Assembly: GCA_002730875.1 (NCBI GenBank)
Contig: PCBI01000002.1
Location: 131,358-195,357 of the forward strand
Source of the DNA: Spirochaetaceae bacterium
GTDB taxonomy: Bacteria > Spirochaetota > Leptospiria > Leptospirales > Leptonemataceae
Direction of reading: 5' to 3'
Length of the DNA stretch: 64,000 bases
The first letter of the stretch is position 1. Every line of letters starts with the position of its first letter. Below, one piece after another: positions 7,139 to 12,562 of this stretch. A program made the translations under genes and the position numbers. The notes below the pieces were generated by a model. It was given only the letters and a program-made list of their open reading frames with translations, was not told the origin of the DNA and did no database searches.

Positions 7139-7702
7139 CTAGCGCCTCGTACTGGCGCTGAGTTTGGCGGCTCGCACTCTGAAAGCCTTTACCCATTCCT
7201 GGACAGTATTTCCTCGAACGTCTGTTCGACCGTAGATTTCGTTCAGCAAGGGCTGCAGAGTCCGTCGCATCAGGGACTCCACGGGCGCGATCTCGGAAGA
7301 ATCCTCCGGCCCAAAGTGGACCAGCATTACATCAAAGTTCTCCATCACTCGCAGAGCGCCTTTGATGTATTCGTCCCGATTCTTTGGTTTGCCAAAACCG
7401 TCCTTCTTCTGGATGGAATAGAGCAGAGTGGCCTGTCGTCCCGAATCCTGAAATTTGAACTGTTCGGGGAGCTTCTCAACAAAGGAGCTGCCCACGCACT
7501 TGCCCACGTAATAAAGATCCCCTTTGGGACCAAATAGTAGATACAGACCCTGTCCATTTCCATTTCCATGCTGGATTTCGGTCAAAATATCATAGATTTT
7601 AATATCCTTTAATCTGGCTTTTTTGGTCTCCCGTAGTATTCGGGCCAAATCTACCATTTTAGTCTTTCGGACTACATCGTATGTTAGTGAGAACTTGAGC
7701 AT
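7139..7702 (-). CDS. putative divergent GIY-YIG-like protein
   Basis: A 187-residue protein without a family I can name with certainty. Residues in the middle read GLYLLFGPKGDLYYVGKCVG, which fits the paired GIY and YIG strands of the GIY-YIG nuclease fold (here GLY and YVG), and near the C-terminus a Glu (APVESLMRR) and Asn (QPLLNEIYGR) are spaced like the catalytic Glu and terminal Asn of that fold. The usual catalytic Arg is not obvious. The start is the ATG at 7702, with GAGGT seven bases upstream; a TTG lies directly before it. The gene stands alone, divergent from the Cys-rich lipoprotein. It could be an active endonuclease, a non-catalytic relative, or a coincidental match. Confidence 0.6.
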   Translation of the reverse strand: MLKFSLTYDVVRKTKMVDLARILRETKKARLKDIKIYDILTEIQHGNGNGQGLYLLFGPKGDLYYVGKCVGSSFVEKLPEQFKFQDSGRQATLLYSIQKKDGFGKPKNRDEYIKGALRVMENFDVMLVHFGPEDSSEIAPVESLMRRTLQPLLNEIYGRTDVRGNTVQEWVKAFRVRAAKLSASTRR

Positions 7703-7874
7703 CAAGGACCTCGATTTGAATTTTTAAGCGGTGATTCTTCTGTTTGTGTGTTACACCGACGCCTTTTACAAAATCGCTAAATATGACGAAAAAGTAAAGC
7801 CGCAAAGCGAGCATATGCGCCGTTAAACGGCAAAGAAAGGTTGATTTTTTTCGATCTGCAGCCCCTCTGGGCCC

Positions 7875-8150
7875 ATGAAATCAAAAAGCAAGCTACTTAT
7901 GGGGGCAGCGTTAGGCGGAATGCTTATGGCTGCATCGTGCGGCGGTTCCGATTCTGCCGATACCCCGCTACAGACCGATCTCGGGGAATGCCATGGAGTA
8001 AACTCCTGCAAAGGGCAGAGCGCCTGCCACACCAAAGAAACAAGCTGCGCCGGGCAGAATTCCTGCAAAGGGAAGGGCTGGCTGCAGATGACCAAAGAAG
8101 AGTGCGCCGAAAAAGGCGGCGACTGGCAAGAAATGACCATGCAAATGTAA
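7875..8150 (+). CDS. small Cys-rich lipoprotein resembling BufA2-type bufferins
   Basis: A 91-residue protein with a lipoprotein signal (hydrophobic segment ending LMAASC, lipidated Cys22). The mature part has six further cysteines (39, 45, 51, 58, 64, 77) and two copies of a CxGxNSCKG unit (CHGVNSCKG and CAGQNSCKG), then KEECAEKGG near the end. This pattern resembles the BufA2 group of bufferins, small periplasmic copper-binding peptides whose cysteines are modified by MNIO (DUF692) enzymes with a BufC partner. No DUF692 or BufC gene lies in this window, and family members normally carry a plain Sec signal rather than a lipobox. Role as a metal-binding envelope lipoprotein is inferred. Confidence 0.75.
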   Translation: MKSKSKLLMGAALGGMLMAASCGGSDSADTPLQTDLGECHGVNSCKGQSACHTKETSCAGQNSCKGKGWLQMTKEECAEKGGDWQEMTMQM

Positions 8151-8157
8151 CGATCGG

Positions 8158-8192
8158 ATCCCGGGAATTCTCCCGGGATTTCCATTTTCTTT
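8158..8192 (+). terminator. rho-independent terminator after the Cys-rich lipoprotein
   Basis: Perfect 9-bp stem ATCCCGGGA / TCCCGGGAT (8158-8166 and 8171-8179) with loop ATTC, starting eight bases after the stop codon and followed by a T-rich stretch (TTCCATTTTCTTT). Confidence 0.75.
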
Positions 8193-8899: not shown

Positions 8900-9730
8900 A
8901 TGAGTTCAAAGGATACAGTTGCAGAAGCAAAAACGCAGGATTTTGGAAAGGATCCCACATCGGTCCGCGATACGGATCATTATGTTGAAGAATATGTAGG
9001 CGGCTTCGTCGACAAATGGGATGATTTGATTGATTGGGATGCTCGCGCCAAGAGCGAAGGCGATTTTTTCATTCGTGCGCTCAAAGAGCGAGGATGTAAG
9101 AAAGTGTTGGATGTGGCCACAGGGACCGGTTTTCATTCGATTCGCCTGATTGAGGAAGGCTTTGAAGTCTTTAGCGCGGACGGTAGTCCGGTTATGTTGG
9201 CGAAAGCCTTCGAAAATGCGCGAAAGCGAGGCCATGTACTTCGCACAATACATGCGGATTGGCGCTGGCTAAACCGGGATGTGCACGGAAAGTACGACGC
9301 AATCATTTGTCTCGGAAACTCGTTTACGCACTTATTTGAAGAGCGAGATCGTCGCAAAACTCTGGCTGAATTCTACGCGGCCTTGCGGCATGATGGGGTC
9401 CTGATTCTTGATCAGCGAAACTACGATACCATTCTAGATCGCGGATTTTCCTCGAAGCACACTTACTACTATGCAGGCGAAGACGTAGAGGCGGTGCCCG
9501 AGCACGTAGACGAAGGTCTTGCCCGCTTTCGGTACACATTTCCGGACAAATCAGTGTTTCATCTAAACATGTTTCCCCTTCGTAAGTCCTACGTGCACAA
9601 ACTTATGGAAGAAGTGGGGTTCCAGAAGGTGGAAACCTTCGGCGATTTTAAAGAAACCTACCATGAAGACGAGCCGGACTTCTGGATTCACGTAGCCGAA
9701 AAGAGCTACGATATCGGAGGTAATCAATGA
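8900..9730 (+). CDS. bsmA: glycine/sarcosine N-methyltransferase (betaine synthesis)
   Basis: SAM-dependent enzyme converting glycine to sarcosine and sarcosine to dimethylglycine, the first two steps of betaine synthesis from glycine. 276 aa. The class I methyltransferase motif I is KVLDVATGTGFHS (about residues 67-79), followed by the family's typical DGSPVMLAKAFENARKR, the Trp-rich DWRWLN stretch and an LDQRNYD motif. The N-terminal DTDHYVEEYVGGFVDKWD is characteristic of GSMT. Cytoplasmic. The stop overlaps the start of the next methyltransferase (ATGA), so the pair is translationally coupled. Such operons occur in halotolerant cyanobacteria, gammaproteobacteria and actinomycetes. Confidence 0.93.
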   Translation: MSSKDTVAEAKTQDFGKDPTSVRDTDHYVEEYVGGFVDKWDDLIDWDARAKSEGDFFIRALKERGCKKVLDVATGTGFHSIRLIEEGFEVFSADGSPVMLAKAFENARKRGHVLRTIHADWRWLNRDVHGKYDAIICLGNSFTHLFEERDRRKTLAEFYAALRHDGVLILDQRNYDTILDRGFSSKHTYYYAGEDVEAVPEHVDEGLARFRYTFPDKSVFHLNMFPLRKSYVHKLMEEVGFQKVETFGDFKETYHEDEPDFWIHVAEKSYDIGGNQ

Positions 9731-10563
9731 GTAAAAAGAACTATTCAGGGGTTGTAGAGAAAGCACGAGAATACTACAACAGCGATGACGCAGACAAGTT
9801 TTACTACGATGTCTGGGGCGGTGAAGATATCCACATCGGACTCTACGAAGGACCGGATCATCCGATTCGAGATGCCAGTCAAAAGACCGTGGAGAAGATG
9901 GACAGCTGCATCCAGAATATTGGCAAAGACAGCAAGGTTCTGGATGCCGGCGCTGGATTTGGCGGAGCTGCCCGGTACCTGGCCAAGAAGTATGGCTGCC
10001 AGGTAGTGGCGCTGAATTTGAGCGAGAAGCAGAATGAACGCGATCGTCAGATGAACAAAGAGCAGGGGCTGGATCATTTGATCGATGTTGTGGACGGCGA
10101 TTTCGAAAACCTGTCCTACGATGACGAAACCTTTGATGTCGTCTGGTCAGAAGATAGCTTCCTGCACAGCGGTAATCGAGAAAAGGTTATGCAGGAACTG
10201 CACCGGGTCTTGAAAAAGGGCGGGGAGCTAATCTTTACGGATCCAATGCAGAGTCCCGACGCAAAGCAGGAAGACCTGCAACCGGTACTGGATCGAATCC
10301 ATCTGGAAACCATGGGTTCCTTCAAATTCTACGAAGAGCAGGCTAAAAAGCTTGGGATGGAAACGGTTCAGATAATCGATCTTTCGCACCAGCTTCCGGA
10401 GCACTATTCCAGGGTAGCAGCGGAGCTCAAAGAGAAGACGGCGAAGATGAATCACATCAGTCAGGAATATGTTGATCGCATGCTAAAGGGATTGTCTCAC
10501 TGGGTTGAGGCTGGTCGAAAAGGAGCCCTGAACTGGGGTATTCTGCACTTCAAAAAGAAGTGA
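9727..10563 (+). CDS. bsmB: sarcosine/dimethylglycine N-methyltransferase (betaine synthesis)
   Basis: SAM-dependent enzyme that methylates sarcosine and dimethylglycine to give glycine betaine, completing the pathway begun by the upstream gene. 278 aa. Motif I is VLDAGAGFGGAARYLA (about residues 70-85); the family-typical KFYYDVWGGEDIHIGLY near residue 20 and WSEDSFLHSGNR near residue 140 are intact. Start overlaps the upstream stop by four bases. A GC-rich hairpin terminator follows, so the operon consists of just these two genes. Confidence 0.94.
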   Translation: MSKKNYSGVVEKAREYYNSDDADKFYYDVWGGEDIHIGLYEGPDHPIRDASQKTVEKMDSCIQNIGKDSKVLDAGAGFGGAARYLAKKYGCQVVALNLSEKQNERDRQMNKEQGLDHLIDVVDGDFENLSYDDETFDVVWSEDSFLHSGNREKVMQELHRVLKKGGELIFTDPMQSPDAKQEDLQPVLDRIHLETMGSFKFYEEQAKKLGMETVQIIDLSHQLPEHYSRVAAELKEKTAKMNHISQEYVDRMLKGLSHWVEAGRKGALNWGILHFKKK

Positions 10564-10927: not shown

Positions 10928-12562
10928 TTAACGGCCCAGATCAGTAGACTCCTTCTGAACGGCCAGATTAGCCTTTCGTGCGCGCTCGACTTCTTCTTTT
11001 CGAATTTCCATGGGATTCACCCCATAGCGAGTGGCCCGGGCGGGGTCCTTCTTAAGCTGTCGGACAAGTCCCCAGCAAATCAGAATTAGCACGATAGAGA
11101 GAGGCAAAGCTGTGGTGAGGGCCGCTGTCTGTAAAGCAACAAGGCCACCGGCCAGTAGAAGCACAGCTGCAACCAGTCCTTCCATCATGGCCCAGAAGAT
11201 GCGCTGCTTCACCGGCGGTTCATGGTGGCCGCCCGCGGTGATCATGTCGATAACCAGGGAACCCGAGTCCGAGGATGTCACGAAGTATCCGGTAATGACA
11301 ATTGTAGCGATAAGAGCCGTAATGTTGGCAAAAGGAAGTTTGTCCAGAAGCATAAACAGCGCCGTGGGCATGGTCTTTGAATCGCTTACGGCCGCGGCAA
11401 TGTTTTCGGCTCCGCCGCCGAACAGATCAAACCAGATGGCCGTGTTTCCAAAGACAGTGAGCCAGAAAAAAGTAACGACCGTGGGGACGAGGGAAACGCC
11501 CAGGATGAACTCTCGGATTGTCCGTCCTTTGGAGATTCGAGCGATGAACATCCCTACGAATGGCGACCAGGCAATCCACCACGCCCAATAAAACAGGGTC
11601 CAATTCTTTTGCCAATCCCGCCATGCGTCGGTTTCGCCTTTGTAGGCGGCCGTCCAGTAGGTAAGATGAATGAATTGCTGCAAATAATCACCCATGCTCT
11701 GCACCCAGGATTTTAAAATGAACAGGGTGGGGCCGGTGAAGAACACGAATAAAAGGAGAATGAATCCCAGAATGATGTTGAAATTACTCAAATAGAGGAT
11801 GCCTTTCTCGAGGCCGGTAACCACCGAGATCGTGGCGGCCAACGTTATCAATGCTATGAGTATGATCTGATTCTCTGTCGAAAATTCCATCAGGCCGGTG
11901 AATTCCAATCCTGCATTTACCTGCATCACTCCAAGCCCCAGGGATGTAGCCAGGCCAAACAGCGTTCCCAGAACTGCAAAGGTGTCGATGATGTTTCCTG
12001 CCGTTCCTTCTACATGCTTTCCAATGAGCGGGTAGAAAGCGCTTCGAAGAGACAGGGGCATCTTCATTCGATGCGTAAAGTAAGCCAGCGCCAATCCCAT
12101 AACAATATAGATGGCCCAGGCGTGTAATCCCCAATGGAAGAAGGTTGTGATCATCGACCGCTGCGCCGCATCCACCGTGCGCGGCTCGCCGATGGGCGGT
12201 TTCAAATAATGGGTCATGGGTTCGGCCACCGAATAGAACACCAGGCCAATTCCCATACCGGCACTAAACAGCATGGCAAACCAGGACATATAGCTGAACT
12301 GAGGTTTTTCGTCATCGGGCCCAAGGCGAATGCGGCCAAAGGGGCTAAAATAAAGCCAGATTACAAAGATTACATAAAAACCTACGCAAAGGATGTAGAA
12401 CCAGCCTACATAGGTTCCAAGGAAGTCGAGTGCATTGCCAAAGTATTCTTTGGTTGCGTCGGTGAAGGTTACGCCCAGAAAAACAAAAAGGAAAATGAGG
12501 ATTGCGGAAAAAACGGACACGTACGGGTTCAAATGAAGCCCATACTTGTTGAAGATTTTCAT
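10928..12562 (-). CDS. BCCT-family betaine/carnitine/choline transporter
   Basis: Inner-membrane secondary transporter, 544 aa, with about 12 hydrophobic segments. The BCCT signature lies around residues 325-350: the Trp-rich FYWAWWIAWSPFVG followed by MFIARISKGRTIREF. The Gly-rich unwound part of TM3 is visible as FSAGMGIGLVFYSVAEP. The family imports betaine, choline, carnitine or ectoine, mostly with sodium. Its position tail-to-tail with the GSMT-SDMT operon makes betaine the likely substrate, letting the cell both make and import it. Starts with ATG at 12562, about 95 bases from the divergent purL. Confidence 0.93.
   Translation of the reverse strand: MKIFNKYGLHLNPYVSVFSAILIFLFVFLGVTFTDATKEYFGNALDFLGTYVGWFYILCVGFYVIFVIWLYFSPFGRIRLGPDDEKPQFSYMSWFAMLFSAGMGIGLVFYSVAEPMTHYLKPPIGEPRTVDAAQRSMITTFFHWGLHAWAIYIVMGLALAYFTHRMKMPLSLRSAFYPLIGKHVEGTAGNIIDTFAVLGTLFGLATSLGLGVMQVNAGLEFTGLMEFSTENQIILIALITLAATISVVTGLEKGILYLSNFNIILGFILLLFVFFTGPTLFILKSWVQSMGDYLQQFIHLTYWTAAYKGETDAWRDWQKNWTLFYWAWWIAWSPFVGMFIARISKGRTIREFILGVSLVPTVVTFFWLTVFGNTAIWFDLFGGGAENIAAAVSDSKTMPTALFMLLDKLPFANITALIATIVITGYFVTSSDSGSLVIDMITAGGHHEPPVKQRIFWAMMEGLVAAVLLLAGGLVALQTAALTTALPLSIVLILICWGLVRQLKKDPARATRYGVNPMEIRKEEVERARKANLAVQKESTDLGR

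Follow-up and report, generated by a model that had tools for sequence, protein, structure and literature searches.

A predicted lipoprotein bufferin precursor of the BufA2 family and a fused MNIO-DUF2063 enzyme at two conserved, separate loci in a Leptospirales genus

The stretch of DNA that we analysed (64,000 nucleotides, hereafter the window) encodes a genuine member of the BufA2 (Buf2) family of bufferins, and the MNIO and DUF2063 domains that mature such peptides are found in the same genome as one fused gene on another contig. We propose that the two genes form a split, two-locus bufferin system, in which BufA2 would be a lipoprotein matured in trans by a single-chain enzyme of the BufB-BufC type, to become a membrane-anchored, copper-binding protein. 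We give this reading a probability of about 75%.

The open reading frame of bufA2 (ATG at 7875, stop codon ending at 8150) translates as MKSKSKLLMGAALGGMLMAASCGGSDSADTPLQTDLGECHGVNSCKGQSACHTKETSCAGQNSCKGKGWLQMTKEECAEKGGDWQEMTMQM. In an HMM search, this protein matched NF050166, the NCBIfam equivalog Cu_RiPP_BufA2, with 73.9 bits and an E value of 8.6e-21, the curated cut-off of this model being 60 bits; Pfam gave no match above threshold. A preliminary description of this DNA had proposed a BufA2-type identity on the strength of six cysteines in the mature protein and two CxGxNSCKG units, and was right on each count: both a bufferin match and a conserved cysteine pattern, whose absence would have spoken against it, are present. 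The six core cysteines are C39, C45, C51, C58, C64, and C77, while C22, the seventh, is located in the lipobox. When the mature sequence was shuffled 200,000 times, no shuffle contained two CxGxNxCKG units (Table 1). All six core cysteines are invariant in one alignment (A2), and C39, C51, C58, and C77 are invariant in a cross-phyla alignment (A4) as well. The orthologues in three congeners, which are 76-88% identical to the window protein, keep the six core cysteines, both units, and the lipobox cysteine, and pairwise dN/dS is 0.02-0.08 for the pairs with estimable synonymous change. A structure model of BufA2 was set aside for its poor confidence (pLDDT 60.5).

Table 1. Features at the bufA2 locus, in window coordinates
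Feature	Position	Strand	Basis
Conserved 14-bp element GTAAAGCCRCAAAG upstream of bufA2, between divergent genes	7794..7807	+	Exact in four genus genomes
bufA2, 91-aa BufA2-type bufferin precursor	7875..8150	+	NF050166 match; syntenic orthologues in three congeners
Signal peptide (predicted), residues 1-21	7875..7937	+	Lys-rich start, hydrophobic core, then lipobox; inspection/pattern
Lipobox MAASC, residues 18-22, predicted lipidated Cys22	7926..7940	+	Prosite-type lipoprotein pattern
First CxGxNSCKG unit, CHGVNSCKG, residues 39-47	7989..8015	+	Cys/Gly/Asn invariant in 10 same-family relatives
Second CxGxNSCKG unit, CAGQNSCKG, residues 58-66	8046..8072	+	Cys/Gly/Asn/CKG invariant in 10 same-family relatives
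Terminator-like stem-loop past bufA2	8156..8181	+	11-pair stem, -18.7 kcal/mol, z -2.5

As for the N terminus of BufA2, it is predicted to be a lipoprotein signal. The lipobox and membrane-anchored form that had been described before are supported by the MAASC pattern and by its conservation, the motif being identical in G017, G018, and G019, with a predicted cut between MAAS and the cysteine. That MAASC is unchanged across four species of the genus, and that lipidated MNIO-modified RiPPs such as NedA are known experimentally (PMC12636315), argue against a precursor cut by signal peptidase I and released into the periplasm as a soluble protein without lipid. We regard this alternative as unlikely, even though close relatives without the cleavage-site cysteine show an ordinary-looking signal peptidase I site there, and position -3 of the lipobox is occupied by Ala where Leu is the favoured residue.

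The bufA2 gene stands alone, as previously stated, in a single-gene unit with a divergent gene on one side (7139-7705, minus strand) and a glycine/sarcosine methyltransferase gene on the other, at 8900. No bufB or bufC was found near it, which is compatible with membership of BufA2, a family whose linkage is known to vary. The terminator that had been assigned to the gene is recognizable as the stem-loop of Table 1, but this structure is not conserved in congeners. The 14-bp element may serve either of the divergent genes. Its copy at the bufA2 locus is the sole exact one in each of the four genus genomes and it is absent before the fused maturase gene, hence we claim no shared regulon. The divergent gene encodes a 188-aa protein with a GIY-YIG-like N-terminal stretch (GLYLLFGPKGDLYYVGK) that is 83-97% conserved in the genus. 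This protein matches neither a Pfam nor an NCBIfam family, and none of the eight other genomes searched has a copy; it was therefore rejected as part of the bufferin system.

The view of bufA2 as an orphan without maturation enzymes holds for the immediate locus, but not for the genome. Searches for MNIO (DUF692) and DUF2063 identified a single 605-aa protein containing both, encoded on contig C10 (657-2474), in line with the earlier suggestion that the maturation genes might be elsewhere. In this draft genome of 4.87 Mb (20 contigs; completeness 92.9%), we counted a single match each for BufA2, MNIO, and DUF2063 and found no Buf1/DUF2282 precursor, although at about 93% completeness a further precursor or MNIO could be missing. 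The fused protein matches PF05114 (MNIO) over residues 20-288, with an E value of 3.8e-87 and 292 bits (cut-off 25), and PF09836 (DUF2063) over residues 357-449, with an E value of 2.1e-11 and 44.4 bits (cut-off 27.2). Since its score with NF050167, the BufB equivalog, is 295 bits and thus under the cut-off of 310, we call it BufB-like rather than BufB. Across 76 MNIOs, the His, Glu, Asp, and Asn alignment columns with conservation of 90% or more are all intact in the four genus enzymes. The orthologue from G019 was modelled with a mean pLDDT of 72 and values above 85 for most of the MNIO barrel, and its MNIO half has the fold of 3BWW, TglH, and MbnB. The DUF2063 part was modelled poorly, and a PDB profile search with it gave no match, but the final 70 residues are confidently modelled as a beta-beta-alpha-alpha-alpha unit, the arrangement expected of an RRE.

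The fused enzyme changes quickly within the genus. Pairwise identity is about 46-57% and dN is 0.33-0.51, synonymous sites being saturated so that dN/dS is incalculable, whereas the genes beside it are mostly 62-95% identical. This fast change, together with the score under the BufB cut-off, could reflect another substrate or relaxed constraint. No bufferin-like precursor was found near the fused gene. In a tree of MNIOs, in which several backbone forks are open, the fused forms are not one clade, and we therefore claim no single origin of the fusion. In a scan of a genome collection, only 3 of 57 named MNIO loci encode fused enzymes, two of them in this genus and one in a deltaproteobacterium. 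Relatives appear in that scan under the names Leptospiraceae, Leptospirales, or Spirochaetia MAGs, which places the window in an uncultured member of this group. Between the fused gene (L041, upstream of 2474) and a divergent DNA cytosine methyltransferase gene lies a conserved TGTCAAARGAATTATGTC-like element, which is present in G017, G018, and G019 as well.

The two loci are conserved across the genus, yet separate. Both bufA2 and the fused enzyme occur in G000, G017, G018, and G019, four of its five members. The bufA2 locus is always flanked by the fumarase/188-aa gene side and by glycine/sarcosine methyltransferase genes, and the fused gene by a LIC11435-like gene and the DNA cytosine methyltransferase gene. 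Because the fused gene is on another contig and 139 kb separate bufA2 from the closer end of its contig, the two are at least 139 kb apart in the window's genome whatever the contig order. The fifth genome (G020; 77% complete, 930 contigs) is without both genes, and since it is incomplete and without the flanking gene as well, it is uninformative. G018 has a second, unfused MNIO, but this enzyme adjoins an EGKCG (oxazolin-type) precursor of its own, which leaves the fusion as the candidate enzyme for BufA2. The surroundings of this second MNIO (contig C23, L044:1149-6753) consist of the EGKCG-repeat precursor, the MNIO, and a DUF2063-like gene beside MerR-like, MerT-like, and mercuric-reductase-like genes, and a link of the EGKCG peptides to mercury is possible.

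Across the phylum, BufA2 and MNIO go together. In a sample of 393 genomes, an MNIO was present in all 16 genomes with a BufA2 above cut-off and in 6 of the 377 others (Fisher p about 7e-24, a value that ignores the relatedness of the genomes). The 16 genomes contain 23 BufA2 matches, of which 11 have an MNIO gene at most 2 kb away and 12 are unlinked. In 7 of the genomes all precursors are unlinked, on contigs that are short in some cases but long in G000, G018, and G094. The bufA2 gene is beside an MNIO gene in G010, G011, G081, G162, G171, G200, and G207, and in all of these except G010 it directly adjoins a fused MNIO-DUF2063 gene. Its position next to the fused gene in six relatives ties the fused architecture to a BufA2 precursor. 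G005 has two stand-alone bufA2 genes and one bufB-bufC pair without a recognised bufferin precursor alongside. In two further loci (G006, C27, L053:6088-8249; G004, C58, L057:19-2201), the order is MNIO, BufA2, DUF2063, and a second BufA2, the enzyme gene coming first where the published order is bufABC.

These data bear on whether BufA2 is modified at all. It could bind metal through plain cysteines, with the remote fused MNIO acting on some other precursor that has escaped recognition, and an unmodified lineage was one of two alternatives that had been raised in the preliminary description. The lack of physical linkage to the enzyme would fit, as would the contrast between a conserved BufA2 and an enzyme that diverges fast and scores under the BufB cut-off, and a survey of Buf2 states that unlinked precursors may be unmodified (PMC12452194). 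However, the presence of an MNIO in every BufA2 genome of the phylum sample, against its rarity in the rest, disfavours an unmodified lineage. Moreover, the window's genome has a single recognised bufferin precursor and none by the enzyme, and relatives place bufA2 beside the same fused architecture. We therefore judge an unmodified BufA2 to be distinctly unlikely. That bufA2 is a non-functional relic stranded by the break-up of an operon might be imagined from its unlinked position and the divergence of the enzyme, but is highly improbable given its low dN/dS, the position and cysteine pattern kept in four species, the retained GTAAAGCCRCAAAG element upstream, and an enzyme frame that is open with its ligand-type residues intact.

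The split system that we favour would work as follows. The BufA2 precursor would be made with its lipoprotein signal peptide from the window gene and, in the cytoplasm, would be bound by the DUF2063-RRE half of the fused maturase. The MNIO half would then oxidise core cysteines of BufA2, probably to 5-thiooxazoles as in Buf1. Modified BufA2 would be exported by Sec and then lipidated at Cys22, and would be held on a membrane, facing the envelope, where its modified cysteines may chelate excess copper. The pairing of precursor and enzyme in this scheme is suggested by genomics, with neither an operon nor a common upstream element joining the two genes. On a more tentative note, to which we give somewhat less than even odds, fusion of MNIO and DUF2063-RRE may have freed the maturase from the operon, allowing it to act in trans on a distant lipoprotein precursor before Sec, and the split RiPP pathway may have become fixed in this Leptospirales lineage.

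Much of this is familiar from known systems. The BufA2 family, its lipoprotein forms, and stand-alone precursors have been described: about 16% of Buf2 are lipoproteins, many precursors stand alone, none of 864 Buf2 genomes is without an MNIO, and the authors of that survey suggested that the maturing enzyme might be encoded at a different locus (PMC12452194). The window protein resembles Buf2/BufA2 (NF050166, Buf_6/12Cys; PMC12452194) in its family HMM, six cysteines, CxGxNxCKG units, and Sec-type N terminus. Where the usual order is bufA-bufB-bufC, however, it has a remote fused bufBC in an arrangement conserved in the genus. The fused enzyme shares the MNIO fold and ligand-type residues with BufB (PF05114/NF050167) and has the DUF2063 domain and, as modelled, an RRE-like C terminus of BufC (PME-type 1, DUF2063-RRE), but it unites both on one chain and falls 15 bits short on the BufB model. 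TglHI and MbnBC (8HI7, 7DZ9) likewise pair a catalytic MNIO with a peptide-binding partner, but as heterodimers of two chains, with other partner types and substrates without signal peptides. NedABC and DybAH (PMC12636315) also have an MNIO-modified precursor with a lipoprotein signal and thus a membrane-anchored RiPP, and the lipidated product of NedABC has been made in E. coli. In contrast to the system described here, their genes are clustered, NedA belongs to the EGKCG oxazolins, and DybA is chryseobasin-like.

In the literature that we searched, which included few subscription journals, we found no description of a fusion between an MNIO and its DUF2063 partner, or of a genus with precursor and fused maturase at two conserved unlinked loci. 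We regard bufA2 as an ordinary gene and the system variant as modestly new. Bufferin pathways are normally sought next to an MNIO gene, and since the genes for precursor and enzyme are conserved here without being linked, cluster-based mining would miss their pairing. The single-chain enzyme might be handy for studying how a precursor that carries an export signal is retained until it is modified. Furthermore, our findings extend bufferins, including what would be a membrane-anchored form, to uncultured Leptospirales. Downstream of bufA2, the window contains glycine/sarcosine and sarcosine/dimethylglycine methyltransferase genes (8900-10563, plus strand; 10928-12562, minus strand) beside a gene that by sequence resembles a BCCT-type transporter. 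They make up a betaine osmolyte cluster, which suggests a saline habitat.
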